Shown one piece after another: positions 6,901 to 23,958 of a stretch of 64,000 nt of DNA. The stretch is from Candidatus Cloacimonadota bacterium (GTDB lineage: Bacteria; Cloacimonadota; Cloacimonadia; Cloacimonadales; WRIO01). Below the pieces are notes generated by a model. That model made no database searches. It saw only the letters and a list, made by a program, of their open reading frames with translations, and was not told where the DNA came from. The stretch's first letter is position 1; each line of letters opens with the position of its first letter. Where the stretch lies: the NCBI GenBank assembly GCA_009777575.1, contig WRLO01000008.1, positions 1-64,000 on the forward strand. Direction: 5' to 3'. A program made the translations under genes and the position numbers.

Positions 6901-8201
6901 AAAAAATCAAAGCTATCATACAAAGAGAATATTTAACTAAGGTAAAGAAAAAATCCTTCATAATTATGACGATTTTAACGCCTATATTGCTACTTTTACT
7001 TATGTCTGCCCCATTTCTTATGATGAGAGTGCAAACCGGTAGTGTAAATATAGCAATATTAGATCAAACTGGTTTATTGGAAGGCAATGTTCGTGGGACC
7101 AGTAGGTATGAAATAACTTTTGTCTACGGAGATATAGAAGCTCTAAAAGCATCTTTTGCAGAGCATTATGACGCATTGCTTTATATCCCAAATTTCGATT
7201 TAAGGTATCCGGGCGGTGTCTCATTGTTTGCAGAAAAGCAAATAGGTGTCACCACAGTTTCAAGTTTAGAAAGACAGATAGAAAATATCATCGAAAATGC
7301 AAGATTTGAAAATGCAGGGATTGATAGAGAGCTGATAGATAGACTTCGAACCCAAATTCGGATAGAGTCTATCATCATAGCTGATGGTGTGGAAAGGATA
7401 GGGAACAACGCAGTTGCACATATTCTGGGATTACTCATGGGTTTTGCAATGTATTTTATTGTTTTCGCATATGGCACAATGGTAATGGCAAGTATAATGA
7501 ACGAAAAAAAGAACAGGATTATTGAAATATTGGTTTCTTCTGTCCGCCCCTTTGAGATAATGATAGGCAAAATACTTGGTATGGCTGGAGTAGCTATGAC
7601 CCAGCTTCTTATTTGGGCGATATTAGGAGTAATCTTCTTTGCTTTCATTAGTGTTGGCGTGATACCATTTCTGGATATTTCTCATTCAGAAATAGAAAAT
7701 ACAATGGAAATGCAAACATCTATGGCAGGTCAAAATGCTTTAGCATATCAAATAGTTGATTTTATCAATGACCCAGGTGCACTGCATTTTCCAACTATTT
7801 TTATGATATTTGCTTTTTATTTTATGTTTGCCTATCTATTTTATGCTACCCTATATGCCACTTTGGGTGCAATTACTGACGATGAGGGACAATCACAACA
7901 ATTTACCATGATAGTCACTTTACCGGTGATATTATCGATGATTATCCTCGTCAATGTGGTCGACAATCCGCATAGCGCCCTGGCTTTTTGGGCATCTATC
8001 ATTCCATTTTCCTCTCCTATAGTGATGTTAGGGAGAATACCTTTCCATGTTCCTACTTGGCAATTGATTTTGTCTGGAAGTATACTCGTTATATCCTTTA
8101 TAGTTTCTACATGGCTCTCTGGCAAGATTTATCGAACAGCGATTTTGCTCTATGGAAAAAAACTTACATGGAAAGATTTATGGAAATTTGTGCGAATATA
8201 G
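6897..8201 (+). CDS. ABC-2 type permease (NatB-like)
   Basis: A 434-aa membrane subunit. It opens with the family hallmark IIQREYLTKVKKKSFIIMT leading into a first membrane helix, has a large extracytoplasmic domain (about 40-170), and then five or so hydrophobic segments, with NEKKNRIIEILVSSVRPFEI between helices as in the ABC-2 family and QSQQFTMIVTLPVIL further on. It forms an exporter with the ATPase encoded immediately upstream (ATGA overlap). The final residues are basic and cytoplasmic. The gene is the last of the run that begins with the solute-binding protein gene. Confidence 0.92.
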   Translation: MKKIKAIIQREYLTKVKKKSFIIMTILTPILLLLLMSAPFLMMRVQTGSVNIAILDQTGLLEGNVRGTSRYEITFVYGDIEALKASFAEHYDALLYIPNFDLRYPGGVSLFAEKQIGVTTVSSLERQIENIIENARFENAGIDRELIDRLRTQIRIESIIIADGVERIGNNAVAHILGLLMGFAMYFIVFAYGTMVMASIMNEKKNRIIEILVSSVRPFEIMIGKILGMAGVAMTQLLIWAILGVIFFAFISVGVIPFLDISHSEIENTMEMQTSMAGQNALAYQIVDFINDPGALHFPTIFMIFAFYFMFAYLFYATLYATLGAITDDEGQSQQFTMIVTLPVILSMIILVNVVDNPHSALAFWASIIPFSSPIVMLGRIPFHVPTWQLILSGSILVISFIVSTWLSGKIYRTAILLYGKKLTWKDLWKFVRI

Positions 8202-9203: not shown

Positions 9204-11842
9204 GTTTCAATCCACGCACCTCATGCGAGGTGCGACACCAAATATAGTTTTTGCATTACATATTTGAATGTTTCAATCCACGCACCTCATGCGAGGTGCG
9301 ACTTTTAGCTTTGATTGCTTGGTCTGCTTCATAAAGTTTCAATCCACGCACCTCATGCGAGGTGCGACGACCTGTTTTATTCCATGCTTTAAACAGGGTT
9401 TTAGTTTCAATCCACGCACCTCATGCGAGGTGCGACCCAGTTCGAAAATAGGTTAGAATATGTTGAAACAGTTTCAATCCACGCACCTCATGCGAGGTGC
9501 GACTTACGGCTATTCTATGGTCTTGGCAATAATGGGAGTTTCAATCCACGCACCTCATGCGAGGTGCGACAGCATTTCAAAGAATCACAAATTATCTCAC
9601 AGTCGTTTCAATCCACGCACCTCATGCGAGGTGCGACAGGTTCGCATTTAGAAAAACCCAACAGATTTCAGTTTCAATCCACGCACCTCATGCGAGGTGC
9701 GACTTGCTTGCTGTCTGTGTGGTTACATCCGTATCGGTTTCAATCCACGCACCTCATGCGAGGTGCGACTGCCATGACAAATTTTTTAGACCTACAGAAA
9801 TTAGTTTCAATCCACGCACCTCATGCGAGGTGCGACGAGTTACTTTAGCTATGCATACTTATTATTTTTTAGTTTCAATCCACGCACCTCATGCGAGGTG
9901 CGACCCACATTCCAATCTTTCTGATTTGACAATACCCGTTTCAATCCACGCACCTCATGCGAGGTGCGACATCGAATAGAGAGTATTATCAATGGTATCA
10001 TAAGTTTCAATCCACGCACCTCATGCGAGGTGCGACTTATTTTTTGACACTCTGTACAACAATAGAGTAGTTTCAATCCACGCACCTCATGCGAGGTGCG
10101 ACTTCTCTACTCAGAAAATTGCGTTCCTCACTAACGTTTCAATCCACGCACCTCATGCGAGGTGCGACAATTGACACTTGACTCACACACTATGCAATAT
10201 TTTGTTTCAATCCACGCACCTCATGCGAGGTGCGACATGATAAATTAATTATCATCACACGAGACAAGTCAGTTTCAATCCACGCACCTCATGCGAGGTG
10301 CGACTTAGCTGGGTTGCAGATATGCGACACCCACCAGTGTTTCAATCCACGCACCTCATGCGAGGTGCGACACTAGGCATCGCCACTTTGAGCGGTGCTC
10401 AACGACGTTTCAATCCACGCACCTCATGCGAGGTGCGACTATCCATCGAAAACAAATCAATATTCAACGCACCGTTTCAATCCACGCACCTCATGCGAGG
10501 TGCGACTAACCGCTTGTTTTTTGACACCCTATATAACAATGTTTCAATCCACGCACCTCATGCGAGGTGCGACGTTTTTGACCAATAAGTCAGAAAACGC
10601 TGTATAGTTTCAATCCACGCACCTCATGCGAGGTGCGACTGGACACCTTTTGATTATTTTTAAACAAGTCATGTTTCAATCCACGCACCTCATGCGAGGT
10701 GCGACCTATTAACATTTACTCTGTTTTCTACTGCACATAGTTTCAATCCACGCACCTCATGCGAGGTGCGACTCATTGCCTTCTCTTAAAAATCTATATG
10801 CTTAAAGTTTCAATCCACGCACCTCATGCGAGGTGCGACTTACTATTGATTTTTTAGTCTCTATCGAGTAGAGTTTCAATCCACGCACCTCATGCGAGGT
10901 GCGACCTCACTAATAAAACAGAAAATGCTGTTTACAGTGGTTTCAATCCACGCACCTCATGCGAGGTGCGACTGTGAACATGCCATGACCATGATTTATT
11001 GCCAGGTTTCAATCCACGCACCTCATGCGAGGTGCGACTTTGTGAACATACCATGACCATGATTGACTGCCAGGTTTCAATCCACGCACCTCATGCGAGG
11101 TGCGACTCTCTACACAAAAAATTGCGTTCCTCGTCAATGTTTCAATCCACGCACCTCATGCGAGGTGCGACCAAGTGTTTGCCTTCGTTCTTATTGACAA
11201 TAAGGTTTCAATCCACGCACCTCATGCGAGGTGCGACATAATGACTATCTTGTTTACTCACAATTTTGTCGTTTCAATCCACGCACCTCATGCGAGGTGC
11301 GACTAAGATTTTTTGATAAAATGTCGTATGTCGATATGGTTTCAATCCACGCACCTCATGCGAGGTGCGACCAATAATGACTATCTTGTTTACTCACAAT
11401 TTTGTCGTTTCAATCCACGCACCTCATGCGAGGTGCGACTTGACACTTGACATTACACACTATGCAATTTTTGTTTCAATCCACGCACCTCATGCGAGGT
11501 GCGACTCACGATTTGTTCCTATATTCCTCCAGGAATGGGGTTTCAATCCACGCACCTCATGCGAGGTGCGACCTCTTGTGATACTATTGAGCATAGTCTC
11601 TACACAAGTTTCAATCCACGCACCTCATGCGAGGTGCGACTTTGTGAACATACCATGTCCACTGTTTGCTGCCAAGTTTCAATCCACGCACCTCATGCGA
11701 GGTGCGACTGAGGTTTTTTGATAAAATGTCTTATGTCGATATGGTTTCAATCCACGCACCTCATGCGAGGTGCGACGGAACAAAATCCGACCTGTTGCAG
11801 ATATGCAAAGTTTCAATCCACGCACCTCATGCGAGGTGCGAC
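9204..11842 (-). CRISPR. Type I-C CRISPR array, 40 repeats and 39 spacers
   Basis: Forty copies of a 33-bp repeat, on this strand beginning GTTTCAATCCACGCACC and ending GAGGTGCGAC, separated by spacers of about 32-36 bp. Every repeat read by eye appeared identical, including the leader-distal one. In transcript orientation (minus strand) the repeat ends in GTGGATTGAAAC, the usual I-C 5' handle, and contains a GCACCTC...GAGGTGC hairpin that Cas5 would cut. The array lies directly downstream of cas2 and is transcribed leftward, so the newest spacers are near 11800. Many spacers are diverged versions of one another (see findings). Apparent open reading frames through the array are artefacts of the repeat period. 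Confidence 0.99.
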
Positions 11843-12009
11843 ACTAACAAATCCAGAGCTGAAGCACCATCACCCTGTTTTTGTTTATTTACTATAATAT
11901 TCATTTCTCCAAATAAAAACAAGCGTTATTGTTATTATTTTTAATGTGAACATATAGTTCGCAAAATTTATCATATAGGAGTATGAAAATAGATAAATCA
12001 TTTTTTTTA
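11843..12009 (-). promoter_or_regulatory. CRISPR leader
   Basis: An AT-rich stretch of 167 bp between the last repeat and cas2. On the minus strand it runs from the cas2 stop into the first transcribed repeat, the expected place for the array promoter and the Cas1-Cas2 integration site. The first 30 bp or so beside the repeat are richer in G+C than the rest. No certain -10/-35 pair was assigned. Confidence 0.7.
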
Positions 12010-12300
12010 TTAAATAATCAGCACCCCCTCTGGATTATACCCAGCTTTTGCACCTACATGTTCGACTTTATTATTCCATTTATTACCGAGGTTATAATAT
12101 CTCAGGCTATCTATTTTTTTATCGATGATTTTTTCAAGCTCTCTTTTTAAAATCAGAAATTTACCAAAGTCAACTACGCATTCAAAGACTGAGTTTTGAA
12201 CTCTTTGCCCATAGTTTTCACAAGTTTTAGCTACTTTTCTGAGTCTTTTTTGACCTGCAGGTGTCTCGGTATTGACATCATAAGTTACTACTATAAACAT
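12010..12300 (-). CDS. cas2: CRISPR-associated endoribonuclease/integrase subunit Cas2
   Basis: A 96-aa Cas2 of the type I-C kind. It begins MFIVVTYDVNTETPAG, with the conserved aspartate after the first beta strand (D8), and contains QNSVFECVVDF and SLRYYNLGNKW. Cas2 bridges two Cas1 dimers during spacer integration. The start at 12300 is chosen because AAGGAATTAAAT precedes it at ideal spacing; a longer frame to 12327 only adds residues outside the family. It is last in the cas operon, separated from cas1 by a tandem repeat block of about 260 bp. Confidence 0.96.
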   Translation of the reverse strand: MFIVVTYDVNTETPAGQKRLRKVAKTCENYGQRVQNSVFECVVDFGKFLILKRELEKIIDKKIDSLRYYNLGNKWNNKVEHVGAKAGYNPEGVLII

Positions 12301-12331
12301 ATTTAATTCCTTTACAATAATATTCATTTTA

Positions 12332-12589
12332 GCGGAACGGATAAATGCGTTCCCTACTGATTGAGGAAATCGGAGATTTCTTCTACGGGGCGGAACTCAT
12401 GCATGCGTTCCCTACTGATTGAGGAAATCGGAGATTTCTTCTACGGGGCGGAACTCATGCATGCGTTCCCTACTGATTGAGGAAATCGGAGATTTCTGCT
12501 ACGGGGCGGAACTCATGCATGCGTTCCCTACTGATTGAGGAAATCGGAGATTTCTGCTACGGGGCGGAACGGATAAATCAGTTCACTAC
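12332..12589. repeat. 58-bp tandem repeat (GGAAC...GTTCC family) between cas1 and cas2
   Basis: Four full 58-bp units starting at 12332, 12390, 12448 and 12506, plus a partial fifth from 12564. Each unit holds GCGGAACnnATnnATGCGTTC followed by CCTACTGATTGAGGAAATCG and GAGATTTCTnCTACGGG. The outer copies carry the GATAAAT version and the inner ones CATGCAT. GGAAC and GTTCC form inverted arms. The partial copy reaches into the cas1 stop codon (TAG, 12586-12588). It belongs to the same family as copies at 14417, 17056 and 61031. Confidence 0.95.
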
Positions 12590-13617
12590 TTACACAAAAA
12601 TGTTGGATATTCGTTCATATCTCCTCTGATATATCGAGCCAGAAGTTGAGCTTGTGCGTAAGGTAATAGTCCTATCTCAATTTTTTCTTCAAGAAAAGGG
12701 TGAGTAATTATCTCTTTCTTTTTTTCCTGCCAGATAGTTAGTATTTTCTTTCTACCCTCGTCAGTCATTAGGACAGCTCCACCTTCTTTTTGAACAAAAT
12801 CCTTTTTATTTATTTGTTTTAAATTTATCATAGAAATGACAGTTCTATCGACTAAATAAGAGCGAAATTCTTCCACCAAATCCACAGCAAGCGATGCTCT
12901 ACCAGACCTTAGTGCGTGAAAAAAGCCTACATAAGGGTCAAGCCCCACAGTTTCCAGAGCAGACATGATTTCGAGGCTAAGGATGGTATAAAGGTATGAT
13001 AAAACACAATTTACTAAATCAAGAGGTGGTCGCTTTGACCTTTCTTGAAAATAAAAATCCTCTTTTTGATGCAAAATCATATCGTCAAACACACTAAAAT
13101 AAAGTTTAGCATATACTCCCTCAAAACCTCTTAATTCCTGTAGATTTTGAAATGTATAGGCTTTTTTTACAGCATTTTTTAGTTCTAAAGAGATTTTTTC
13201 GAGCTTTTCAGTGTTAATTTTTTCTTTATTGTCTCTAATAGTCTTTTCAAGAGTAAACCTCTGATTAAAGAGCTTTGCTGAAACTATATCTTGAGAAAAT
13301 TTAAGGCAAAAGTCCATATCATCTGAAAATATATATTGCCTTTTTCTTAGAAATACGCTACCTTTAGTTTTTCCAGATACTCGACTTAGAAACTCACCAT
13401 TTGGCTTTAAAAAACTCAATCCGATATTATTTTCTGCACATTTTCCCATCAATGCTGGACTCGCTCCCATGTATCCAAAACAAACGATGTTTTCTACATT
13501 TAGCATTGGGATACGAAATTTCTCATCCTCTTCTAATAAAACTACTATAGTTTCGTCTTTCAAGGAAAGATAGGAATGCGGGGTTGTGATATATAGAGTG
13601 TTTAATAATTTTCGCAT
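12586..13617 (-). CDS. cas1: CRISPR-associated integrase Cas1 (type I-C)
   Basis: A 343-aa Cas1, the spacer integrase. The N-terminal beta domain (MRKLLNTLYITTPHSYLSL) is followed by the helical catalytic domain. Metal-binding residues fall in RGFEGVYAKLYF (Glu), DPYVGFFHALRSGR (His) and VDLVEEFRSYLVDR (Asp/Glu), all retained. The length is normal. It is encoded downstream of cas4, with about 120 bp between them, and upstream of cas2. No strong ribosome site is obvious before the ATG. The stop codon lies inside the last partial unit of the neighbouring 58-bp repeat, so the repeat has grown up to, but not into, the conserved protein. Confidence 0.97.
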   Translation of the reverse strand: MRKLLNTLYITTPHSYLSLKDETIVVLLEEDEKFRIPMLNVENIVCFGYMGASPALMGKCAENNIGLSFLKPNGEFLSRVSGKTKGSVFLRKRQYIFSDDMDFCLKFSQDIVSAKLFNQRFTLEKTIRDNKEKINTEKLEKISLELKNAVKKAYTFQNLQELRGFEGVYAKLYFSVFDDMILHQKEDFYFQERSKRPPLDLVNCVLSYLYTILSLEIMSALETVGLDPYVGFFHALRSGRASLAVDLVEEFRSYLVDRTVISMINLKQINKKDFVQKEGGAVLMTDEGRKKILTIWQEKKKEIITHPFLEEKIEIGLLPYAQAQLLARYIRGDMNEYPTFLCK

Positions 13618-13737
13618 ATTATTATACTTTATGAGACGACCACAGAAAAAATGAGAGAAAACAGAGGATTAATAGAGCAGACACAAAGACCACCGAGATA
13701 AAAAGTGTTGATCTGATATAATAATTAGATGTATCCA

Positions 13738-14385
13738 TTATTTCTCCAAAAAATTACTTATTCTAATCAAATTTGAACTTGGTTTCTTAAATACCCTCGG
13801 CAGGCAGATATCAATCATCGAACAGAGATTACAATTTTGACCTTCAGGTTTTTGTGGGATAAATGACTTTTCCATGAGTTGATGAATATCAAGGGCAATC
13901 TTTTCCACAGATAGTCTAAGCTCGTCTGAAAGCAGAACATTTACCCTCTTTCTGAGTTTTCCATAATAAATATCTCCAGACAAAATATCTATCGAAAACA
14001 TTTCTTCCAAGCACATAGCTTGAGCACATAGTTGCATCTCATCTGCTCTGCTCTTTTCAGGTTTTCCATTTTTATACTCGATAGGATTTATTTTCCATAA
14101 ACCCTTTTGTGTAGGTAGCGAAACACCTTTTTCATCTTTTAAAAACTCGATTATATCGCAAACTCCATAAAGACCCAATCTATCAGAATATACAGGGACA
14201 CTACGACTGTAATACTTCTCACCCCTTTTTTCATTAAAAAACGGGTCATTTACCTTTTCGTGAAAAATATTACCCTCAATGGTCTTAAAATTGTCCAGAA
14301 ATTCATTGTCGATATACATCAAGCCAAACCTACGCTTACAATAAGCGTATTGCTTGATAGTTGAAATGGGTAGACGATCATACAT
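13738..14385 (-). CDS. cas4: CRISPR-associated exonuclease Cas4
   Basis: A 215-aa Cas4, a RecB-like Fe-S nuclease that trims prespacers and selects the PAM during adaptation. YAYCKRRFGL near the N-terminus gives the first cluster cysteine; NPIEYKNGKP holds the nuclease E-x-K motif, with DEMQLCAQAMCLEE following; CNLCSMIDIC near residue 182 gives the remaining cluster cysteines. The ATG has a strong GAGGGGGG site. It lies downstream of the third toxin-antitoxin-like pair and upstream of cas1, the usual I-C order. Confidence 0.95.
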   Translation of the reverse strand: MYDRLPISTIKQYAYCKRRFGLMYIDNEFLDNFKTIEGNIFHEKVNDPFFNEKRGEKYYSRSVPVYSDRLGLYGVCDIIEFLKDEKGVSLPTQKGLWKINPIEYKNGKPEKSRADEMQLCAQAMCLEEMFSIDILSGDIYYGKLRKRVNVLLSDELRLSVEKIALDIHQLMEKSFIPQKPEGQNCNLCSMIDICLPRVFKKPSSNLIRISNFLEK

Positions 14386-14406
14386 TTCATGCCCCCCTCT
14401 ATGTCC

Positions 14407-14446
14407 TCTTTGATTCAGTAGGGAACTGATTTATCTGTTCCGCCTT
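14407..14446. repeat. GGAAC...GTTCC palindromic element, single copy
   Basis: On the minus strand it reads GGCGGAACAGATAAATCAG then TTCCCTAC, one copy of the dispersed palindrome, placed between cas4 and the small gene at 14452. The same text recurs at about 17056-17080. Confidence 0.75.
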
Positions 14447-14451
14447 TTTTC

Positions 14452-14646
14452 TCATTTTTTCCCACTGTCCTCCGCTCTCTTCTTAGCATTATACTCATTC
14501 ATTTCTTTGATAAATTTCTTTGCCTTGTTGTTGATATGATCACACATCTCTTCCGTGGTCATATGTTTGGTTATTTCATAGTTGTACTCACGGATTTTGT
14601 GAATATCCTCGATTGTAAAGTTTGGGCTGATTTTTGGCTTTTCCAT
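14452..14646 (-). CDS. Small partner of PIN toxin (putative antitoxin), TA pair 3
   Basis: A 64-aa, strongly charged, probably helical protein (TIEDIHKIREYNYEITKHM; ends KKRAEDSGKK). It starts one base after the stop of the PIN-domain gene, with a strong AAGGAGG site inside that gene, so the two are translationally coupled. Small proteins in this position beside PIN toxins usually act as antitoxins; that is inferred from context. No DNA-binding motif is obvious. Confidence 0.7.
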   Translation of the reverse strand: MEKPKISPNFTIEDIHKIREYNYEITKHMTTEEMCDHINNKAKKFIKEMNEYNAKKRAEDSGKK

Positions 14647-14647
14647 T

Positions 14648-15124
14648 TTATTCCTCCTTGTTGATGAGCATTGATGGTGAGATTAAGTCAATTGGTTTAT
14701 AATCCAAAAGGTTGGTAATGGCACGAACTCCTTTGACTACTTTTACATTCACCATATGCTTGAAATTCCAAGACACTATGTAATCACACTCAGAAACAAT
14801 TGCACAACCAATATGAAAACAATCTCTTAAATGCTTTTGTTTTAAAATATCTAACCTGATTATTTCATTGGCAATTTCTCTGACAGCTGAATTAACTTCG
14901 AGTTGCTCATACTCTATCTGCTCTAAAAAATTGTAAAGCATCAATCTTTTAGGTTCATGGCAGTCATCTAATTCATCAAATACCACACTGGATAGATAAA
15001 TCTTATACTGACCATTCTTTATTTCTTCCCATAAATCTATGGTTTCTTGCATTTTTTCTGGTGCGTCTGGAGCTTCTAGGTGGCTAATCACTGATGTATC
15101 AAGATATAGTCTGATTTTCTTCAT
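14648..15124 (-). CDS. PIN-domain nuclease (putative toxin), TA pair 3
   Basis: A 158-aa PIN-like ribonuclease. RLYLDTSVISHLEA carries the first acidic residue, VVFDELDDCHEP the second, and HLRDCFHIGCAIVSECDYIVSWN the later ones (LRDCFHIG and CDYIVSWNF). PIN toxins cleave RNA and are held in check by a co-encoded partner, here the gene starting 1 bp downstream. It lies between the second cas5 and cas4, read in the same direction as the cas genes and with an AGAGGT site of its own. It differs in sequence from the other two PIN proteins in this operon. Confidence 0.8.
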   Translation of the reverse strand: MKKIRLYLDTSVISHLEAPDAPEKMQETIDLWEEIKNGQYKIYLSSVVFDELDDCHEPKRLMLYNFLEQIEYEQLEVNSAVREIANEIIRLDILKQKHLRDCFHIGCAIVSECDYIVSWNFKHMVNVKVVKGVRAITNLLDYKPIDLISPSMLINKEE

Positions 15125-15167
15125 TTATGACCTCTTTTACTTGTCTGTCATAATATCTTTTTCTCAA

Positions 15168-15893
15168 TTATGGTGACTCTTTATTCATGTAAATATTTTT
15201 AACAAAGCTATTATCAATAAGTTCTCCAGTATTTCGATCTATAAAATAACACATTTTCAACAAATTTTTTAAATAATCGATGTCTTTTATGTTTGGATCT
15301 TTATTATTTTTGCCTTTTTTACTTGGTATTTTTCTTACATGATAATACCCTTGATCATGGAGAATATATCCTAAATTAATTTCTTTGTCTTTCCATTCAT
15401 GATGACTTTCAGGAATAGGTGCGCCATCTTCAAGAAGCTCAAAATGACAGGCATATTCTCTAGCACCAAAAAAAGGTTTTTGAAAATATTCACCTTTGCT
15501 TAATCTTCTTATGGCACATTCTCTATGTTTATTTATGTTATCTCCTATCCCTTTTTCTTCTTCAACTAAACAAATTTCTGCTTCAATGACATAATGAACA
15601 TCCCTTAAAATTATCGCTGATCTTTGAGTTCTATTTTTAGAGTTAGAAATATTTATAGGTTTTGATCCCATCACATCGTTTACCTCATTTCTCCTGATAT
15701 TCATATACCTGATAGGGTTTATGATATGAATTTTTCTGATTTTCCATTGCATCGCTGGCTTCCAATAGATGGAATCAAGAATACCTTTTGCAGCAGATGG
15801 TGTGATTATGTCATAAGTAACCCTATCAACCTTCATTTCAGGACGAGCAAAGCAGGCATAGTCGCCCCAAACTCTAACCTTTATATTTTCCAT
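15168..15893 (-). CDS. cas5: Second Cas5 (type I-C Cas5d-like), diverged paralogue
   Basis: A 241-aa Cas5 clearly related to the one at 20001-20744 (shared VRVWGDYACF, RPEMKV, TPSAAKGILD, IYWKPA, NIRRNEV, FFGAREY region) but well diverged, so it is not a recent duplicate. In type I-C, Cas5 replaces Cas6 and cuts the repeat RNA. The residues matching the known Tyr/Lys/His site of Cas5d are kept: Tyr in SIYWKPA (about residue 43), and Lys-His in INKHRECAIRRL. An AGGAGG site precedes the ATG. It sits between two toxin-antitoxin-like pairs, without its own cas8c or cas7. It may be a spare processing nuclease or a subunit left from a second operon. Confidence 0.93.
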   Translation of the reverse strand: MENIKVRVWGDYACFARPEMKVDRVTYDIITPSAAKGILDSIYWKPAMQWKIRKIHIINPIRYMNIRRNEVNDVMGSKPINISNSKNRTQRSAIILRDVHYVIEAEICLVEEEKGIGDNINKHRECAIRRLSKGEYFQKPFFGAREYACHFELLEDGAPIPESHHEWKDKEINLGYILHDQGYYHVRKIPSKKGKNNKDPNIKDIDYLKNLLKMCYFIDRNTGELIDNSFVKNIYMNKESP

Positions 15894-15937
15894 TAATCCT
15901 CCTGATAATTATGTAGCCCTTACCATTGCAAGCTATT

Positions 15938-16144
15938 TTATAATTTTTGCTTTCCTTTTCTTTTTTCAATACTGGCAACAATATCATCAATGGTTATATC
16001 TTTCAAAGATTCTTCCCTTTCGATAGTATAGTTACCTTTACCACTTTCAAACTGGCCCATAAACAATACCATGCCAGTAACACCAAGTTCTTTTGTTAAA
16101 GCTTTAAAGCCTTTTTCTCTTATTTCACTTAAGTTAAACATCAT
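15938..16144 (-). CDS. Small partner of PIN toxin (putative antitoxin), TA pair 2
   Basis: A 68-aa protein (MMFNLSEIREKGFKALTKEL... ending EKRKGKQKL) that overlaps the end of the PIN gene upstream by 11 bp, with GGAGG inside that gene. The segment GVTGMVLFMGQFESGKGNYT is of a kind I associate with small proteins encoded next to PIN nucleases. An antitoxin role is inferred from position and coupling. Confidence 0.7.
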   Translation of the reverse strand: MMFNLSEIREKGFKALTKELGVTGMVLFMGQFESGKGNYTIEREESLKDITIDDIVASIEKRKGKQKL

Positions 16145-16604
16145 TGTATAATACCTCCATTAACCAAATTACTGGGTTGTAAATATTAATTTTTGAAATC
16201 ATATTTTTTTTTACTTTGTTGATTAATTTATTATCAGTCGTAAGAAAAGCATCTGCCTTATCAAACTCTGCAGATGCCAGATGAAGAGCATCAAAAGGTT
16301 TTATCGAGAGTGCATGTAATTCATTTGCTCTCAATAAAATTACATCGTTAATCTCTAGGTGGGGACTTGTAAAAGAATATAATTCTAAAACTTGTTGCTT
16401 CCTTATGGGATTTATTATCTTCTCGATTTCGGCTTCCAAAACATCGCTTCCACATATTTCCCAAACACCTTCGGTACACTTTCCAATAATAGTTAGAATT
16501 GCCTCACATTCAAGACGCATTTGATAATCAGTTAAGTCGTCAAAAGGTCTATTGAAACAACAATTATCAAGATACAACTTCTTTTTTTTCATGTCATATT
16601 CCAT
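16134..16604 (-). CDS. PIN-domain nuclease (putative toxin), TA pair 2
   Basis: A PIN-like protein of 156 aa (152 from an internal ATG). LYLDNCCFNRPFDD gives the first acidic residue, SDVLEAEIEKI the second, and KPFDALHLASAE with AFLTTDNKLINKV the last two, so the full acidic set is present. It is followed by an overlapping small partner gene. It lies directly after the cas3 remnant and before the second cas5, the same cas3-cas5 junction at which pair 1 stands in the main operon, but with toxin first rather than antitoxin first. Confidence 0.82.
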   Translation of the reverse strand: MEYDMKKKKLYLDNCCFNRPFDDLTDYQMRLECEAILTIIGKCTEGVWEICGSDVLEAEIEKIINPIRKQQVLELYSFTSPHLEINDVILLRANELHALSIKPFDALHLASAEFDKADAFLTTDNKLINKVKKNMISKINIYNPVIWLMEVLYNDV

Positions 16605-16703
16605 AATTTTTTTTTATCCCTCATTAAATTTACTCCTTGCATTATGACTTAGTATTATTAAATATTATACTGTTCTGCATTAAAATTTTTGTCGCTAAAA
16701 ATG

Positions 16704-16957
16704 TCAAGTACTACTCGGTTTATTTGAAAATAGAGATTCAAAAAACTGCACCATTGTTGTTATTATTACAGGGGTATCCCAATTTTCCGTTGCCCAATGA
16801 GTTTTGATTCTTCATCATGATTTTCTTTATTTATATCTGGTATTAGGTTAGAATGGTGTTCTGAGACATTATTGTCGCCCAAAATATTTTTAATTTTTTT
16901 AGCATTTTGTTCAATGATAGTAATGAATGGCACCACATAGATTATTCTGCTCCTCAT
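16704..16957 (-). pseudogene. cas3 remnant (helicase part)
   Basis: Two adjacent frames together match a middle piece of the intact Cas3 encoded at 21588-23813. The first reads IIYVVPFITIIEQNAKKIK and NVSEHHSNL; after a frameshift near 16800 the second reads WATENWDTPVIITT and QFFESLFSNK and ends in TGA at 16704-16706. The intact protein has IIYVV/VIYVVPYTTIIEQNAK, EHHSN, WATENWDVPIVITT and QFFESLFSNK in the same order. Only some 80 of 741 residues survive and both ends are lost. It marks the head of a second, older cas operon. Confidence 0.88.
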
Positions 16958-17049
16958 TTTTATCCAATCTTAATTAAATAAACTACAAAAAATGTTTTTT
17001 TATTTCAAATATTTATTTTTTTCCTAATATTCCACTTGTTTGTAACTTG

Positions 17050-17135
17050 ATTTTGTAGGGAACTGATTTATCTGTTCCGCCTTTTGTCCTTGAAACCATT
17101 GATTCGGAACGGATAAATGAGTGCAGTCAGAAAAC
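17050..17135. repeat. GGAAC...GTTCC palindromic elements, two facing copies
   Basis: TAGGGAACTGATTTATCTG followed by TTCCGCC (17056-17082) is one copy on the minus strand; about 30 bp on, CGGAACGGATAAATGAGTGC (from 17112) is a damaged copy on the plus strand. A further fragment, AAATCTGTTCCCTAC, stands at about 17282-17297. They lie in the seam between the end of cas7 and the cas3 remnant. Confidence 0.7.
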
Positions 17136-17171
17136 CCCAATTTTGTCTTTTTTATTTATTTTTATGAGGTT

Positions 17172-17259
17172 ATTTTTGTAGTGGTGTATTGCTTATGCCT
17201 TTAAAACTGCTTGTGTTCGCACCGAATCTAAAGCGTAAGCAATACGCCACTACAAAAAT
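17172..17259. repeat. Long inverted repeat, 27-bp arms
   Basis: The left arm (17172-17198) starts ATTTTTGTAGTGG and the right arm (17233-17259) ends CCACTACAAAAAT; they pair at 25 of 27 positions around a 34-bp loop. The right arm ends in A-tracts, so on the minus strand the foldback ends in a T-run like a terminator. It lies downstream of cas7, where it could end transcription or be a small miniature element. Confidence 0.8.
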
Positions 17260-17342
17260 GGGTTCTCGGACTGCGGTCATAAATCTGTTCCCTACAAATC
17301 AAATTACTGGGTTCTACCCCTTAAGTCGTGGAGGCTTCGCTG

Positions 17343-18200
17343 TTATTTCATAAGGAGAGTAACCCCATCGGGCATACTTGTATCAATTTCGATATCATAA
17401 TCACCAATACTTCTCGGAGTAACTACATTCAGTTTTTTGGTTATTTTTACCTTTTCAAAAAGTTTATGAGAATGAGTCTTCCCAAGAGCACAATCATGTT
17501 TAAAGATAATCAGCTTATGCATTATCATCTTACCACGAGCAGCAGACCTATCATGCTCAAACATATTGATTATAGCTTCCCAAAATAGCTCTAAATCATC
17601 TTCTGAAAAACCTGTCTTCTCGGCAAGCTTTGCTGATATAAAACCTTCTGCTTTGTATAAAGCATAGGGGATGAAATTCTTTTTGCCCATCTCAGTTTCA
17701 CCGGTTTCTGCTCTTTTTTCGTCTGTACGTGCCATTCTTGTAATGGTAATATCTTGTGGAACTACAGGATCAATACTTTGTGCAAAGTTTAGTTGTATAG
17801 GACCTCGAACTATTCCACAAGGGTGATCACCTGTGCTCATTACGGCACCAAATGTCCTTATGTCGTAATAGTTTCTACACATAAAATCTTGTGCAGTTCT
17901 AATATCATCTGGCTTTTGCTTCCCTTTTTCACTTTTTATACCTGATCTATCATAAGCAACTTTCATTTTTGTGTTTAAAACCTCTTTAATAAATATTTTA
18001 TAGGTTTCAGCATCATTATGGATAAGTTCAATATAGTTCCGAACTTTTCTCTTCAAACAAACATCAGTAACAATACCGTGCCCTGTTTCGGGGTCTGTGC
18101 GTGGCATATTGCCAGCATCGGGATCTCCATTAGGGTTCCCATTTTCTACATCAAATATGATGACAAAGTCATATCTGTTTTTAATCGGTTGTTTCTCCAT
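17343..18200 (-). CDS. cas7: Cas7 backbone subunit (Csd2, type I-C)
   Basis: A 285-aa Cas7 that polymerises along the crRNA to form the Cascade backbone. NRYDFVIIFDVENGNPNGDP at the N-terminus and MPRTDPETGHGIVTDVCLKR are hallmarks of the Csd2 family; IRTFGAVMSTG, CGIVRGPIQLNFAQS and FEHDRSAARGKM follow in the expected order. The start overlaps the end of cas8c by 20 bp, so it is coupled to it. It is the last gene of the main effector block; a long inverted repeat and the cas3 remnant follow. The length is normal and nothing is missing. Confidence 0.97.
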   Translation of the reverse strand: MEKQPIKNRYDFVIIFDVENGNPNGDPDAGNMPRTDPETGHGIVTDVCLKRKVRNYIELIHNDAETYKIFIKEVLNTKMKVAYDRSGIKSEKGKQKPDDIRTAQDFMCRNYYDIRTFGAVMSTGDHPCGIVRGPIQLNFAQSIDPVVPQDITITRMARTDEKRAETGETEMGKKNFIPYALYKAEGFISAKLAEKTGFSEDDLELFWEAIINMFEHDRSAARGKMIMHKLIIFKHDCALGKTHSHKLFEKVKITKKLNVVTPRSIGDYDIEIDTSMPDGVTLLMK

Positions 18201-20004
18201 CTTTCACTTTCTCCTTTTTGGTATAGATTTTTTGAATTTGTTGATAATACCCAAGTATAAAACTACCTTGTTGCTCCATACTTTGAGTTTTTGGGAAATT
18301 TTCATTTTCTATCAAAGCAAGGCATTTACCAAGCTCAATATTTAGATAATTTCCTTCGATTTTTGCCAAATGGTGCTGAGCTAACTTCAATAAAGTAGGA
18401 AAGACGATAGCAGGATTAGCACAGGCAGTAGCAAAATACTTGTCTTTAATAGTGGCATTTAGACTCCCACCAGCAGCATTCTTTTGAATGATTTCGAGAT
18501 AGGCAAACACTCTTCCCAAATTGTATGCACTATTCTTTGACTCTTCGTTAAGATACATATTAATCTCCTTAAAATTTTTATTTCTGATTAAAATTGCTTT
18601 TATTGCAGAGGCTCGCACTTGATTTACGCTCCTCTCTGTTTTTATCCGCAAAAGGAGCTGATTAAAAAGTATTTGAGGATATTTTTGTCCTGTGATTATT
18701 GCCCTCATTACAGCACCACCTAAAAGAGGGTTTACCTTTTTATCAGAGGAGTTTGTGCTTACAGTGGAAAATAATAAATCACGAGATCTGATATAGTTTT
18801 TTGTATATTTTTCATCTGCATTAAAAATTTGTGTCTCTAGATGATATTTGTGAATATTGTCACAAAATTGAGTTAATGTATTTTGATAAAAATAGCGAAC
18901 AGAAATCCTACCTGCATTAGGTGCTAATCCTAGTATGAAATATTTAACATCAACATCAAAATTAGGGTCTTGAGTAATGATACCTTGACTACCAGATTTC
19001 AGAATTGATTTTACCAAATTAGTAATTTTTTTATCAGGGCTTCGAGTGGATTCATTATCATTCTCATTGACAACTTTTGCAGTATTCTCATTTTCGTCAT
19101 TATCATCCGAAACACCATCAAGCAACCCAAAAGCCAAATCTAAAAACTCTTTTTTAGGTGAACTAGCCCAAAATACTGTGGTATCATCGCCAAGATACAA
19201 TTTGTAATCTCGATTGTCCAATAAGTATTGCAAAATAGTGGTATACTTAAATTCTGCCTCAAGAGATACTCTCGAATTATTTGACTGTGTAAAACCGTAA
19301 GATTCATAAGATTCTTCATTAAATGAAATCAGAGCTGCACCAGTCGATTGGGCACCTCTAACCCCACTTAATTTACCATGTGACCTTGAGATTGGTAAAT
19401 TGTCTCCGATGATTGCACATTGTCCTGATTCTTTGTTATTTAATACATCCTTTTTATTGTTCTCTGCTTCCCATAAATTAATTATCTCCTCGCATTCGTG
19501 AAAGCATTTTGTCTCTCCAATTAGCTTAAATACCCCGTTTCCTTTGAAAGCATCATTTCCAGTTTCAACTGCAGCTGAAAGAATATGCTCATTTTCCCAC
19601 GCCTTATCTATATCCCATTTTTCAAAGAATTTGACTATTGCTTTTGCTTCTCTCGATAATCCCGATCTAAATAAATTTAAATGTAAATCTTTTGCTGCAA
19701 GAAATTTCCTTTCATTAAGCTCTTTGTCTTTCTTTTTTCCCATAACACCAAGTAAATAAGTCAAATTATCACAAACAGGTGATGATGCAATGCCTGATAT
19801 TTTCATGTTTTTCGGCATAATAGCACTTTTGGGTTTATCTTTTTTTCTATCATTGACATGGGAAATGATGTTAAATAATTCTCCCTCTTCAGTAATAATT
19901 ATTGTGTAATAATAGTCGGTTTTCTCATAACCATATTTACTGATATTAAAAGACCCGTCATTTGCCAGCATATCATAATATTCACATAAAGCATTAAGTA
20001 TCAT
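18181..20004 (-). CDS. cas8c: Cas8c large subunit (Csd1, type I-C)
   Basis: A 607-aa Csd1-type large subunit of the I-C Cascade, which recognises the PAM. Recognisable blocks are MILNALCEYYDMLANDG at the start, SGIASSPVCDNLTYLLGV, HGKLSGVRGAQSTGAALISF, ESYGFTQSNNSRVSLEAE, FWASSPKKEF and, near the C-terminus, YNLGRVFAYLEIIQKNA, followed by the small-subunit-like helical tail (ATACANPAIVFPTLLKLAQH). It overlaps cas5 by 4 bp and cas7 by 20 bp. In I-C systems an internal start in this gene often makes a separate small subunit (Cas11); a suitable internal start was not pinned down here. An acidic insert lies around residues 295-320. Confidence 0.96.
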   Translation of the reverse strand: MILNALCEYYDMLANDGSFNISKYGYEKTDYYYTIIITEEGELFNIISHVNDRKKDKPKSAIMPKNMKISGIASSPVCDNLTYLLGVMGKKKDKELNERKFLAAKDLHLNLFRSGLSREAKAIVKFFEKWDIDKAWENEHILSAAVETGNDAFKGNGVFKLIGETKCFHECEEIINLWEAENNKKDVLNNKESGQCAIIGDNLPISRSHGKLSGVRGAQSTGAALISFNEESYESYGFTQSNNSRVSLEAEFKYTTILQYLLDNRDYKLYLGDDTTVFWASSPKKEFLDLAFGLLDGVSDDNDENENTAKVVNENDNESTRSPDKKITNLVKSILKSGSQGIITQDPNFDVDVKYFILGLAPNAGRISVRYFYQNTLTQFCDNIHKYHLETQIFNADEKYTKNYIRSRDLLFSTVSTNSSDKKVNPLLGGAVMRAIITGQKYPQILFNQLLLRIKTERSVNQVRASAIKAILIRNKNFKEINMYLNEESKNSAYNLGRVFAYLEIIQKNAAGGSLNATIKDKYFATACANPAIVFPTLLKLAQHHLAKIEGNYLNIELGKCLALIENENFPKTQSMEQQGSFILGYYQQIQKIYTKKEKVKDGETTD

Positions 20005-20744
20005 TTTTTCACCTCAGAAACATTTGTTAAGTCAAGTGTCCCATCTACAAGAACTGCCTTAAAAAATTGTGGTTCTACTTTCATTGTATCCTTTTTTTTA
20101 TCAATCTGGAAATCAAGATTCAGTAGCATATATCCATAATCTTTACTACCCTTGAATTCGTCAGAAATGCGATATATGAAATCAACATTTTCTATAATTT
20201 CAAAATCACAAGGAAACTCTCTAGTGCCAAGAAAAGGTTTTTGAAAAAATTGTCCATTTCTGAGTCTTCTAAGAGCAACATTATAATGTTTTTCCACAGT
20301 ATCTTCTGTCCCACAATTTTCTTTTATAAGTTCAAAATGTGCTTCAATGACATATTCTACATCACGCAAAACCATAGCTGCTCTCTGTGTTCTATCATCT
20401 GTAATGAGAATAGAATAGACATCCTCTTTTTTCTCTGAAGTTTCTGAAATTGAAAAAAGTTGTTGTTCATCGACATGATTTGCTTTCTTCATAATCCCTT
20501 TCACTTTTGATAGAGACATCTTGGACTTCACCTCATTCCGTCTTATATTCGTAAATCTAATAGGCTTTAAAACATGAATTTTATCTATCACCCACCTGAT
20601 TGCAGGCTTCCAATAGATACAATCAAGTATCCCTTTTGCAGCTGAGGGGGTGATAAAGTCATAACTCACCCTCTCGACTTTCATTTCTGGTCTTGTGAAG
20701 CAGGCATAATCGCCCCAGACACGAACATTTACTCCATAACCCAT
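20001..20744 (-). CDS. cas5: Cas5 (Cas5d) pre-crRNA endonuclease of main I-C operon
   Basis: A 247-aa Cas5 that in type I-C both processes pre-crRNA and caps the 5' handle in Cascade. NVRVWGDYACFTRPEMKVE opens the RAMP fold; the processing residues expected from Cas5d are present (Tyr44 in CIYWKPA; Lys-His in VEKHYNVALRR), and FFQKPFLGTREFPCDF carries the glycine-rich region. An insert at about 85-110 is not found in the second copy at 15168. The gene has a GGAGG site and overlaps cas8c by 4 bp. A toxin-antitoxin-like pair is inserted between it and cas3. Confidence 0.96.
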   Translation of the reverse strand: MGYGVNVRVWGDYACFTRPEMKVERVSYDFITPSAAKGILDCIYWKPAIRWVIDKIHVLKPIRFTNIRRNEVKSKMSLSKVKGIMKKANHVDEQQLFSISETSEKKEDVYSILITDDRTQRAAMVLRDVEYVIEAHFELIKENCGTEDTVEKHYNVALRRLRNGQFFQKPFLGTREFPCDFEIIENVDFIYRISDEFKGSKDYGYMLLNLDFQIDKKKDTMKVEPQFFKAVLVDGTLDLTNVSEVKK

Positions 20745-20775
20745 TTGTCCTCCAAAAAATATATTTTTGTATCCA

Positions 20776-21192
20776 TTATCTTATCCAGGCAAACTTAATT
20801 CTCTCGTTTTCTGGTATTTTGTCTAGTTCATGATGATCAGCTGTGACGAAATATCCATTATTGATTATACTTTCTGCAATTCCTATTGTATCTGCTATTG
20901 ACATTTTGTATAGTGATTTTAGTCTGCCTGCTTTTAGAAAAGTATTTTCTGTTATATCAGAGATAATATCAATAGGCAATGAATAAACAAAATTTAATAT
21001 TGCTGTTGCTTCTGTTTTGCCTAGTTTTTTGTAAAAATGATAATAGACTTCAAGTAGGTTAATCTTATGCATGATAATCGAGACTTTATTTAGAACTGCT
21101 TTTTTAAGGAGTTCAGATACATAATCATCTCCTTTTTCTTTTGAAATCAAAGCTATCAAAGCACAAGAATCTAATATGTAGGTATCATTCAT
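20776..21192 (-). CDS. PIN-domain nuclease (putative toxin), TA pair 1
   Basis: A 138-aa VapC-like PIN nuclease. Acidic residues are in YILDSCALIALIS (Asp8), INLLEVYYHF (Glu), KMSIADTIGIAES (Asp) and FVTADHHELDKI (Asp). The ATG overlaps the end of the upstream small gene by 8 bp, the classical antitoxin-then-toxin arrangement. It lies between cas3 and cas5 and is read with them. Probably an RNA-cutting toxin held by the partner encoded at 21185-21436. Confidence 0.85.
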   Translation of the reverse strand: MNDTYILDSCALIALISKEKGDDYVSELLKKAVLNKVSIIMHKINLLEVYYHFYKKLGKTEATAILNFVYSLPIDIISDITENTFLKAGRLKSLYKMSIADTIGIAESIINNGYFVTADHHELDKIPENERIKFAWIR

Positions 21193-21436
21193 ATCCCAAG
21201 TTATCTATCCTCATTTCTTCTAAAAAACTATCTACAGATATTTGACAATCAGAAAACCTACATTGAATCTCATCAATTAATCTCTCTAGACATAAAAGTT
21301 TTTGTTTCATCACTTCATCATCTAGTGAAGTTCTCATTGTACTACCTTCATTTGTGGCTGAAGATTTATTATCTTCAACAAAATAACCAAGCGTTGTATT
21401 TGTATTCTCACTAATTACTGCTTGTTTTTCAATCAT
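21185..21436 (-). CDS. Putative antitoxin, TA pair 1
   Basis: An 83-aa acidic protein with no family that I recognise. The N-terminal 45 residues are polar and probably flexible, and a helical segment (DEVMKQKLLCLERLIDEIQ) is followed by SVDSFLEEMRIDNLGYE, the type of tail that wraps a PIN toxin. The overlap with the toxin gene and an AGAGGT ribosome site support an antitoxin role. A gap of 150 bp separates it from cas3, so it may have its own promoter. Confidence 0.7.
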   Translation of the reverse strand: MIEKQAVISENTNTTLGYFVEDNKSSATNEGSTMRTSLDDEVMKQKLLCLERLIDEIQCRFSDCQISVDSFLEEMRIDNLGYE

Positions 21437-21587
21437 TTCTACCTCTCTTTTTTTGTATTTTCTTTATAATCAAAAATTTTCAATTTACAAAATTTGTCAA
21501 GAATATTTTCTGGGCTAATTATTCCTTTAGTGATCTAATAAAAATAAAACATAATAATTCTACATAAACTATAGAAAACTAGTCCCA

Positions 21588-23813
21588 TCACACATAATGA
21601 CTTTCCGCATTTTTATTTTCATCCGTAAAAATATCGAGACCATTTTCATCATTATAATATTTCTCTGTGGACAGCACGTATATACCAGCGATATTTTCTA
21701 CTGCATGGTCATTGATTAATTTTTGCAGATCATTCGGATAAATATTTAATGTAAATTGTTGTAGTTTCCTCAAATCAGTTTTCTGATAGTATCCGCTCCT
21801 GAGTTTTTCTATAATTTCTTTTGAATCCTTACATTCAATGATTATTGATTTTGTATGGTCTTCAATAAGTTTAAAGTTATCAGAAGCATTTTTGAAGTTG
21901 CAATCAGTAAAACCCCCATTATTAACTTGAAATTCATTTAATATATTGTATTTATCAAGTAGATTGTCCTGTTCTACTGTTGAATAATATATTTCAAAGT
22001 ATTTTTTTATCCCATCGAGATCAAAAGTCTTTTCTTTACAAATATAAATGGTTTGACGACAAAAAGCAATAAAATATTCTAACATTGTCGGTAATTTCCC
22101 AATATCACTAGTTGGTTCAAATACTTTCACCAGACCCTTTTCCCTTTTCCCCTCTCTATTTGCTCGACCTCCAGCTTGGATTATACTGTCTATACCTGCT
22201 AGACTACGATAGACGACAGGGAAATCGATATCAACTCCTGCTTCGATGAGTTGTGTAGAAATAACTATAGTCGGCTTTTTATCGAGCAGTCTTTTTTTTA
22301 TCTCATTGATTTTTTGAGAGCGATGGAGTGGTATCAGTAGAGTGCTAAGATAGAATACATTATTTTCTACACTTTTTTTACGGGCAAACTCATACAATTG
22401 ATAGGCATGTCGTCTACTGTTAACTACTACAAGAGCAGATTTATTTCCATCATATATGTCTTTAACGATTTCATCATCTGATTGTTTTCCCATATTTATA
22501 TAATCCACCCTTTTTAAATCATCGAAAAGTTGCTCTACATTTTCAGCTATTTCGATAGCTTGAAGGTCTTTATAAACATATTTTTGCAGAGTTGGTTGTG
22601 TTGCACTACATAATACAGCGGAGCATCCATAATTTAAAATCAATTCACTGACGATAAACATACAAGGTGACAAATATTCTATAGGTAGCATTTGAGCTTC
22701 GTCAAAGATTATGACACTCTTAGCGATATTATGAATCTTTCTCAATTGTCTTGTCTTGTTTGAAAATAGTGATTCAAAGAATTGGACATTGGTAGTGATG
22801 ACGATAGGAACATCCCAATTTTCTGTAGCCCAACGATATTTGAAATCATCTAAATCTTCATTTTGGATGTTTGAATGATGCTCTAGGACATTGTTTTCAC
22901 CGACTATTTCTTTTATCACTTTTGCATTTTGTTCAATAATAGTTGTATAGGGAACTACATAAATGACTCTTCTGAGATCATGCTTTAAAGCGTGTTTTAA
23001 TGCGAAAGCAAGCGATGACTTTGTTTTTCCACCACCAGTAGGCACTGTCAAAGTAAACAGACCTTGTTCATTTTCTGCTTTATCTAAGCAGTTTTTTAGT
23101 ATCTTAGCTCTGGTGTTATTAAGCTCTGAACCATCGCTTTGAGGGAGTTTCGTTACTAGTTTTTCATATAAATCTTGGACTTTGTCATGCTCTACAATTC
23201 TTTTTGTTCCACTGCAAAACTCTTCTGTATCAGTAAAGTCCGAGTCAACCAGTACTGAAAAGAGCATACGGATGTAGGTGGCTACTTGGAAACCAAGTTC
23301 ATTTTTTGAGAAATTAGGATTTAGTATTTTTCGTAGATTGTGAGACAATGTTTCTGGTAGAGATATTTCTTTTTCAAAAGGTAGATCTGGGGTTTTTGAG
23401 GTTTGGAGTTTGCCGAGATATGTGTCAATATTGTATTCATCACCAAGATTCATCAGACCAGTGTGGTGTGAAGCAATAGCGAGAGCAAATTGTCTTGATA
23501 GTTTGTCTTTTTGATATTTATTGCTAAATATCACAGCTCCACTCATAGCATGGTTAGCTTGTTTAGTTTTTCCTCTCAGTTTATCCTGAAAGTCCTCAGA
23601 ATACTTACCAAAGTCATGACACAACCCCAACACATACCCAATATCCCTCGCTCCAAAGACACTAGCCTTTTCACGAGCTAGCTCAGCCGTTTTTTCTAAA
23701 TGATCTTTCAATAAGTGGCAATTTTCATCACCAGGTAAGCATTTCTTACATTCAGCACAGGTGATTTTATTTCCATTTTCATCCTTTGTATGTGCAAGGT
23801 ACTTTTTTGCCAT
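21588..23813 (-). CDS. cas3: Cas3 HD nuclease-helicase (type I-C)
   Basis: A 741-aa Cas3 that unwinds and degrades DNA bound by Cascade. The N-terminal HD domain has LGLCHDFGKYSEDF, NHAMSGAVIF and ASHHTGL; cysteine pairs upstream (CAECKKCLPGDENC) may bind metal. The helicase part has Walker A TVPTGGGKTKSSLAF, IYVVPYTTIIEQ, DEAQ in IIFDEAQMLP, SATQP and motif VI IIQAGGRANREG. Length and motifs are complete, so it looks active. A GAGGAG site precedes the ATG. It heads the leftward cas operon; the start region faces the divergent pcrA-like gene with about 145 bp between them, where both promoters must lie. Confidence 0.97.
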   Translation of the reverse strand: MAKKYLAHTKDENGNKITCAECKKCLPGDENCHLLKDHLEKTAELAREKASVFGARDIGYVLGLCHDFGKYSEDFQDKLRGKTKQANHAMSGAVIFSNKYQKDKLSRQFALAIASHHTGLMNLGDEYNIDTYLGKLQTSKTPDLPFEKEISLPETLSHNLRKILNPNFSKNELGFQVATYIRMLFSVLVDSDFTDTEEFCSGTKRIVEHDKVQDLYEKLVTKLPQSDGSELNNTRAKILKNCLDKAENEQGLFTLTVPTGGGKTKSSLAFALKHALKHDLRRVIYVVPYTTIIEQNAKVIKEIVGENNVLEHHSNIQNEDLDDFKYRWATENWDVPIVITTNVQFFESLFSNKTRQLRKIHNIAKSVIIFDEAQMLPIEYLSPCMFIVSELILNYGCSAVLCSATQPTLQKYVYKDLQAIEIAENVEQLFDDLKRVDYINMGKQSDDEIVKDIYDGNKSALVVVNSRRHAYQLYEFARKKSVENNVFYLSTLLIPLHRSQKINEIKKRLLDKKPTIVISTQLIEAGVDIDFPVVYRSLAGIDSIIQAGGRANREGKREKGLVKVFEPTSDIGKLPTMLEYFIAFCRQTIYICKEKTFDLDGIKKYFEIYYSTVEQDNLLDKYNILNEFQVNNGGFTDCNFKNASDNFKLIEDHTKSIIIECKDSKEIIEKLRSGYYQKTDLRKLQQFTLNIYPNDLQKLINDHAVENIAGIYVLSTEKYYNDENGLDIFTDENKNAESHYV

Positions 23814-23905
23814 TTTATCTCCTCATGTAATATCTTTTAATTAAAACATTAATCAAAGTATATTGTTTCAGAAAAAAGATTTTGATAATACTGAGTAAAT
23901 ATATG

Positions 23906-23934
23906 TTGACAAAAATGATAAGAAAAAAGAAATG
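23906..23934 (+). promoter_or_regulatory. Possible promoter of the UvrD/PcrA gene
   Basis: TTGACA at 23906-23911, with a weak AT-rich -10 at about 23928-23934 (AGAAAT). If it is used, the transcript would begin near 23940, after the ATG at 23932, and would favour the ATG at 23959 as the true start. Confidence 0.35.
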
Positions 23935-23958
23935 GTAAAAAAGGAAGTAAAAATAAAT

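Follow-up and report, generated by a model that had tools for sequence, protein, structure and literature searches.

In this work, we analyse a window of 64,000 nucleotides from a Candidatus Cloacimonadota bacterium (GenBank assembly GCA_009777575.1, contig WRLO01000008.1, positions 1 to 64,000), to which all coordinates refer, and focus on a type I-C CRISPR–Cas operon on its minus strand that holds three small gene pairs, each encoding a PIN protein (PIN1, PIN2 and PIN3) and a small partner (AT1, AT2 and AT3). We read these pairs as three independently acquired type II toxin–antitoxin (TA) modules of a VapBC-like kind, co-directional with the cas genes and lodged in junctions of the operon that tolerate insertion, and put the probability of this reading at roughly 0.6. 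The locus is best seen as a rich example of a situation that has already been reported, that is, TA pairs between cas genes.

Three intact PIN pairs in a type I-C operon

On the minus strand, the gene order is cas3–(AT1/PIN1)–cas5–cas8c–cas7–(cas3 remnant)–(PIN2/AT2)–cas5b–(PIN3/AT3)–cas4–cas1–cas2, followed by a 40-repeat array (Table 1), and NCBIfam and PADLOC models agree on the type I-C identity of the cas genes. The six small genes are all intact open reading frames (ORFs) and all lie on the cas strand. An initial annotation of this DNA had described three differing PIN pairs within an I-C cas operon, and all its coordinates hold. Pair 1 is arranged with the candidate antitoxin first and pairs 2 and 3 with the toxin first; PIN2 and AT2 overlap by 11 nt, and PIN3 and AT3 are 1 nt apart.

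PIN1 clears the Pfam PIN model (PF01850) with 39.1 bits against a cut-off of 23.6, PIN2 falls just below it (22.6 bits), and PIN3 is below the Pfam cut-offs for both PF01850 (19.9 bits) and PIN_3 (21.7 bits, cut-off 27). A PDB sequence search with the PIN proteins gave no real match. At the structure level, the AlphaFold models of PIN2 and PIN3 (predicted local distance difference test scores of 91 and 94, respectively) both find solved VapC/FitB toxins in the PDB when searched with Foldseek. The active sites are preserved in all three proteins: PIN1 retains the D, E, D and D positions in an alignment with other PINs of its own genome, D13, E59, D105 and D118 of PIN2 are invariant in a small alignment, and E51, D101, D114 and N120 of PIN3 are invariant in 11 relatives, the fourth position being N in PIN3 and in every relative aligned. 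PIN2 is distantly related to PIN3 (25% identity, E value of 0.008) and PIN1 stands apart, which agrees with the earlier view that the three PINs differ and, as far as pair 1 is concerned, that they arrived separately.

As in VapBC modules, a PIN-fold, RNase-like protein with its acidic active-site residues in place is thus combined with a small overlapping or abutting partner, and for pairs 2 and 3 this partner is conserved among relatives, whereas pair 1 has the layout only. Unlike in VapBC modules, two of the pairs are toxin-first and the partners go unrecognized: searched against the models of Pfam, NCBIfam, PADLOC and PHROGs, none of AT1, AT2 and AT3 significantly matched an antitoxin family, including those with a known DNA-binding fold such as RHH, AbrB or Phd. 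Their layout supports the three pairs as VapBC-like type II TA units, with toxicity and neutralization as predictions. Each would be an ordinary module whose PIN RNase is kept in check by the small partner; once expression stops, the labile partner would be lost first and the RNase would arrest growth. If the pairs and the cas genes share a transcript, the toxins would be freed whenever the operon is deleted or shut off, with no need for a special sensor, Cascade control or special evolution.

Strand and spacing suggest that the pairs may indeed be transcribed with the cas genes. We also considered that they have promoters of their own. Promoter-like sites number 64, little above the 48.3 in shuffled sequences (s.d. 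8.3), and a scan for minus-strand terminator-like sites between the cas genes found none, so that this weak promoter excess and the lack of terminators support neither autonomy nor co-transcription.

The overlap or abutment within each pair, which would make it a single translation unit, also fits a role in back-up immunity, where the pairs are abortive-infection modules triggered when a phage blocks transcription of the host or of cas, and the site in the operon only couples them to defence expression. Type II TA modules generally act in phage defence, which counts for this explanation. But the sequence bears no sign of phage responsiveness and none of the six proteins has a PADLOC defence-system match above noise, and we regard back-up immunity as quite unlikely.

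Table 1 Features of the type I-C locus and of its three PIN pairs.
Feature	Coordinates	Strand	Description
cas3	21588..23813	-	741 aa, intact; Pfam HD and Cas3 C-terminal domains
AT1, PIN1 partner, candidate antitoxin	21185..21436	-	83 aa; upstream of the toxin gene; 8 nt overlap with PIN1
PIN1, VapC-like PIN protein	20776..21192	-	138 aa; PF01850
cas5 (Cas5c)	20001..20744	-	TIGR01876, 3e-51
cas8c	18181..20004	-	TIGR01863, 3e-115
cas7	17343..18200	-	TIGR02589, 9e-103
Dispersed repeat GGAACAGATAAATCAGTTCCCTAC, copy 1, 5' edge of extra block	17055..17078	-	Exact match
cas3 remnant, frameshifted, Cas3 residues 282-353	16719..16957	-	tblastn; repeat families D11 and D13
PIN2, PIN-domain protein	16134..16604	-	156 aa; PF01850; AlphaFold and Foldseek to VapC/FitB
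AT2, PIN2 partner, candidate antitoxin	15938..16144	-	68 aa; partner and order kept behind PIN2 relatives
cas5b, second Cas5c gene	15168..15893	-	TIGR01876, 6e-43
PIN3, PIN-domain protein	14648..15124	-	158 aa; 14 matches in own genome; AlphaFold and Foldseek to VapC
AT3, PIN3 partner, candidate antitoxin	14452..14646	-	64 aa; similar partner behind nearly all other in-genome PIN3 copies
Dispersed repeat, copy 2, 3' edge of extra block	14418..14441	-	Exact match
cas4	13738..14385	-	PADLOC Cas4c, 4e-70
cas1	12586..13617	-	PADLOC Cas1c, 1e-144
cas2	12010..12327	-	ORF aligned with I-C Cas2 of related loci
CRISPR array, 40 repeats GTTTCAATCCACGCACCTCATGCGAGGTGCGAC	9204..11842	not assigned

Besides these features, the window holds two tandem arrays, one of 58-nt units between cas2 and cas1 (12332-12621) and one of 64-nt units (29893-30212).

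A probable duplicate of the cas3–cas5 piece carries pairs 2 and 3

The stretch from the cas3 remnant through AT3 forms an extra block that occupies the normal cas7–cas4 junction and is flanked by two exact copies, in the same orientation, of a 24-nt repeat that occurs 29 times in the genome at up to 2 mismatches (0 for a control pattern). This repeat is near-palindromic, stands in tandem in places at 31-nt spacing and has a further copy in the window at 12566-12589.

By tblastn, the cas3 remnant aligns with the operon's intact cas3 at 74-79% identity, with a frameshift and over Cas3 residues 282-353 only, and such high identity marks it as a duplicate of the operon's own cas3. In a phylogenetic tree, cas5b groups as sister to cas5 (support 96/78; 98% of bootstraps), a grouping that the long cas5b branch (1.57) leaves unsure. 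We also considered a second operon from another lineage and rejected it on the basis of this sisterhood, uncertain as the long branch makes it, and of the identity between remnant and cas3.

The simplest history, which we infer from these similarities, is that a cas3–cas5 piece was duplicated, most of the spare cas3 was lost and cas5b diverged. Pair 1 would have inserted at the cas3–cas5 junction; the duplicate, now bracketed by repeats, would have come to the cas7–cas4 junction, and pairs 2 and 3 would have inserted into it, with pair 2 landing beside most of the spare cas3 or replacing it. The pairs found at the two cas3–cas5 junctions are unrelated, so pairs 1 and 2 came independently.

The frameshifted remnant, the long branch and changed C-terminus of cas5b and the dispersed repeats in and around the operon could instead mean that the operon is breaking down, with cas5b and the remnant block as debris and the pairs as marks of the process. 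However, a complete I-C gene set and the array persist, and the ORFs of cas5b and of the six TA genes are intact, which makes such decay very doubtful. As to cas5b itself, it keeps the Cas5 core, and may be subject to drift or may have taken on a new role within the I-C Cascade.

Relatives of the pairs lie mostly outside cas loci

Pair 3 has spread within its own genome (G000). Among the matches of PIN3, about seven are full length, mostly accompanied by AT3, and lie on contigs C125, C105, C33 and C146; decayed copies lie on C15 and C30. The full-length PIN3/AT3 copies adjoin acetyltransferase, isochorismatase-like and other accessory genes, away from cas, and the AT3-type partners behind nearly all other in-genome copies are 47-59% identical. 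Pairwise dN/dS values between the full-length PIN3 copies are mostly 0.1-0.3, with dS near or past saturation. A unit composed of a GNAT gene, an unknown 171-aa gene and PIN3/AT3 is repeated on C105, C33 and C146 (loci L160, L161 and L162), which suggests segmental spread of the pair.

Pair 2 is widespread, with partner and order preserved in three genomes (G092, G116 and G121) and in four plasmids, cyanobacterial and from Butyrivibrio. In two of these genomes (G116 and G121) the PIN2 relatives are truncated or interrupted by a stop codon with the AT2 relative intact, and on C15 the PIN3-type toxin is broken or only a remnant with its partner still intact; decay of the toxin next to an intact partner fits the partner being the antitoxin.

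In Planktothrix agardhii plasmid p1 (NZ_LR882945.1; L351, 1288-7493), a PIN2/AT2-type pair lies between hsdS and hsdR of a type I restriction–modification (R-M) operon, which also holds, next to it, an MNT–HEPN pair and a two-gene unknown pair among hsdM, hsdS and hsdR, all on a single strand. This operon closely parallels ours and shares with our locus a PIN2/AT2-type module, co-stranded and between genes of a multigene defence operon, but the operon is R-M and not CRISPR–Cas.

The nearest relative of PIN1 in the phylum (L137) is 28% identical and has a different upstream ORF, and a plasmid search with PIN1 returned no match; a close relative of pair 1 was not found in these searches. With relatives of pairs 2 and 3 mostly outside cas loci, a conserved tie between the pairs and I-C systems is not supported.

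Type I-C operons accept insertions at certain junctions

Among 125 genomes of the same phylum, cas8c is present in this genome alone, with no other I-C system. We therefore surveyed 80 loci collected via Cas7, 5 plasmid loci and 140 loci around cas8c, the latter drawn from the phyla of a Chloroflexota, a 'Deltaproteobacteria' and a Methanosarcina genome, which together correspond to roughly 215 distinct I-C operons. The standard order cas3–cas5–cas8–cas7–cas4–cas1–cas2 is exact in 153 of the surveyed loci. Gaps of at least 250 nt occur at the cas7–cas4 (28), cas3–cas5 (21) and cas4–cas1 (6) junctions, scarcely at cas5–cas8 (3, none of which contains a same-strand gene of at least 70 aa), and never at cas8–cas7. 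The initial annotation had pointed to the similar sites of the pairs; insertions at cas3–cas5 and cas7–cas4 are indeed seen, but this similarity follows from the tolerance of these junctions to insertion.

It had also called for a search for PIN pairs in related I-C operons. We found no PIN pair at roughly 200 other cas3–cas5 junctions. A hidden Markov model (HMM) of the PIN3 family (a pooled PIN HMM proved too weak, with 0 matches in the first 85 I-C loci) found a single PIN3-family protein (L285; E value of 9e-23), encoded with a 78-aa ORF on the same strand just before cas4. Seven further operons carry TA genes of other kinds. On the same strand as cas are a DUF3990 gene with a second gene at cas3–cas5 (L081 and L083), HicB–HicA at cas7–cas4 (L279), and HEPN–MNT (L264) and DUF4160–DUF2442 (L256) at cas4–cas1, and on the opposite strand a PIN or YoeB (L299 and L320).

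This distribution bears on the idea that the PIN proteins are subunits that bind the effector and aid targeting, as PcrIIC1 does with the II-C Cas9. PcrIIC1, a predicted PIN-domain nuclease in some II-C loci (PMC12669027), is an example of how proteins with a PIN fold can be incorporated into CRISPR effectors (PMC12669027, PMC13153721), and both PIN2 and PIN3 match it in Foldseek (8wmm chain G). Although both cases have a PIN fold encoded in a cas locus, PcrIIC1 belongs to a class 2 system, its match is no better than those of dozens of VapC toxins, and every PIN here is paired with a small partner of the TA type. Apart from the shared fold, nothing at the locus points to such a role. Relatives are also found away from cas genes and nearly all other I-C operons are without these PINs, so that a conserved co-occurrence with effector genes is not seen. 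We consider a role as effector subunits highly improbable.

Further accessory genes recur at the boundary between the effector and adaptation genes. Bro-N genes at cas7–cas4 or cas4–cas1 number 11 inside the operons and 4 in the flanks, 23S-IVP-like four-helix proteins 9 and 0, RhuM 6 and 2, and Fic 4 and 6, respectively; the excess of IVP and Bro-N looks real. The loci with such boundary genes are L243, L249, L252, L257, L266, L275, L284, L285, L299, L304, L305, L308, L310, L313, L315, L316, L320 and L087. In addition, a stretch of CRISPR-array-like repeats lies between cas3 and cas5 in an I-C operon from Faecalicatena orotica (L067, about 7139-7510).

TA density in I-C operons resembles that of their flanks

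The position of TA modules was also to be compared with chance. With the same set of queries, the operons (1.67 Mb) yield about 9 modules and their flanks (1.39 Mb) yield 6, a comparison that is biased toward the inside as the queries were derived from inside operons, and 1 or 2 of 150 sampled small flank ORFs match antitoxin families. There is no visible enrichment of TA modules inside I-C operons over their flanks.

Within the genome itself, roughly 26 PIN loci in 3.76 Mb would place 0.07 in the 11.8-kb span of the operon, for which three or more have a Poisson probability of 6e-5. However, PIN genes cluster away from cas too, with four on C11 within 4.3 kb and pairs on C105, C146 and C15, so that a uniform null is wrong. 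The C11 cluster (L168, 643-5705) comprises four VapBC-like pairs, one with a disrupted PIN, and an MNT-like gene in tandem over 5 kb, with no cas genes nearby. The genome is rich in TA modules (13 PF01850 genes in 3.76 Mb, compared to 47 in about 136 Mb of 40 I-C genomes checked), and TA genes within its cas operon are therefore unsurprising.

Comparison with known systems

Pairs of vapBC genes interspersed in cas cassettes are described for Sulfolobales, where a maintenance role was proposed and a type III-D cassette of Acidianus hospitalis holds four different pairs (PMC4390879). As in our locus, the genomes there are rich in TA modules and the cas genes are interspersed with more than one kind of PIN-type pair, but those cassettes are archaeal, with a III-D system as the cited example, whereas ours is bacterial and I-C and the partners of its PIN subfamilies fall into no known antitoxin family. 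The presence of toxin-like genes in defence operons has been discussed (PMC3506569), and our literature search found no description of PIN pairs in I-C operons.

Type I systems can also carry CreTA RNA toxin–antitoxins, whose proposed effect is addiction to the cas genes (PMC9458426, PMC10097628). Our locus likewise has TA genes inside a type I cas locus, but these are protein pairs, and the likeness to CreTA drawn in the initial annotation does not extend to the CreA-kind degenerate repeat: a search for CreA-like partial CRISPR repeats in 11951-24000 gave 0 matches (1 for the control). We rejected a CreTA-type guard on this ground and because the spacers match the remainder of the window over 14 nt at most, and a CreTA mechanism is, from these searches, unlikely.

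A protein analogue of CreTA is what the initial annotation had proposed, with the pairs selected for making the cas operon addictive and punishing its loss or shut-off. In the broader form, unrelated TA modules would be recruited repeatedly, as interchangeable guards, to the junctions of Cas3 with Cascade and of Cascade with adaptation; loss or viral shut-off would free the toxins and remove the cell, and the operon would be an addictive immune unit. Part of this proposal stands, as unrelated TA families share the junctions of six other I-C operons (L081, L083, L256, L264, L279 and L285) and an equivalent role was put forward for the Sulfolobales (PMC4390879); the three intact, co-directional pairs and the interleaved PIN2 and HEPN–MNT pairs of the Planktothrix operon also speak for it. 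What does not stand is a conserved association with I-C: TA modules show no excess over the flanks, each pair family lives mostly elsewhere, no partner family is conserved per subtype and the operon lacks a CreA-like repeat. We consider both the selection of these pairs as guards and their repeated recruitment unlikely.

Several observations nevertheless weigh against the pairs being ordinary TA modules in tolerant junctions. The partners have no recognized antitoxin domain and pair 1 is without close relatives. Three intact pairs are more than any surveyed I-C operon holds, and about two-thirds of the TA modules in other operons (all six same-strand pairs) are co-directional with cas, a bias that neutral docking does not need. 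The PIN3 family recurs before cas4 in an unrelated operon (L285) and pair 2 in an R-M operon, and these recurrences could point to some preference for operons of defence systems. Finally, the flank counts are small, and most bases of an operon are intolerant of insertion, so that an equal density per base could mask an excess per usable site.

The guard proposal thus remains testable, and three intact pairs in one operon would make a sharp test case for it. Should the TA modules of cas operons prove to be more than cargo, an immune operon would be insured against its own loss by whatever TA is at hand, and such insurance, if true, would bear on why CRISPR–Cas systems are kept or lost. Even if the pairs are cargo, the survey maps where I-C operons accept insertions and provides the null for any guard claim.

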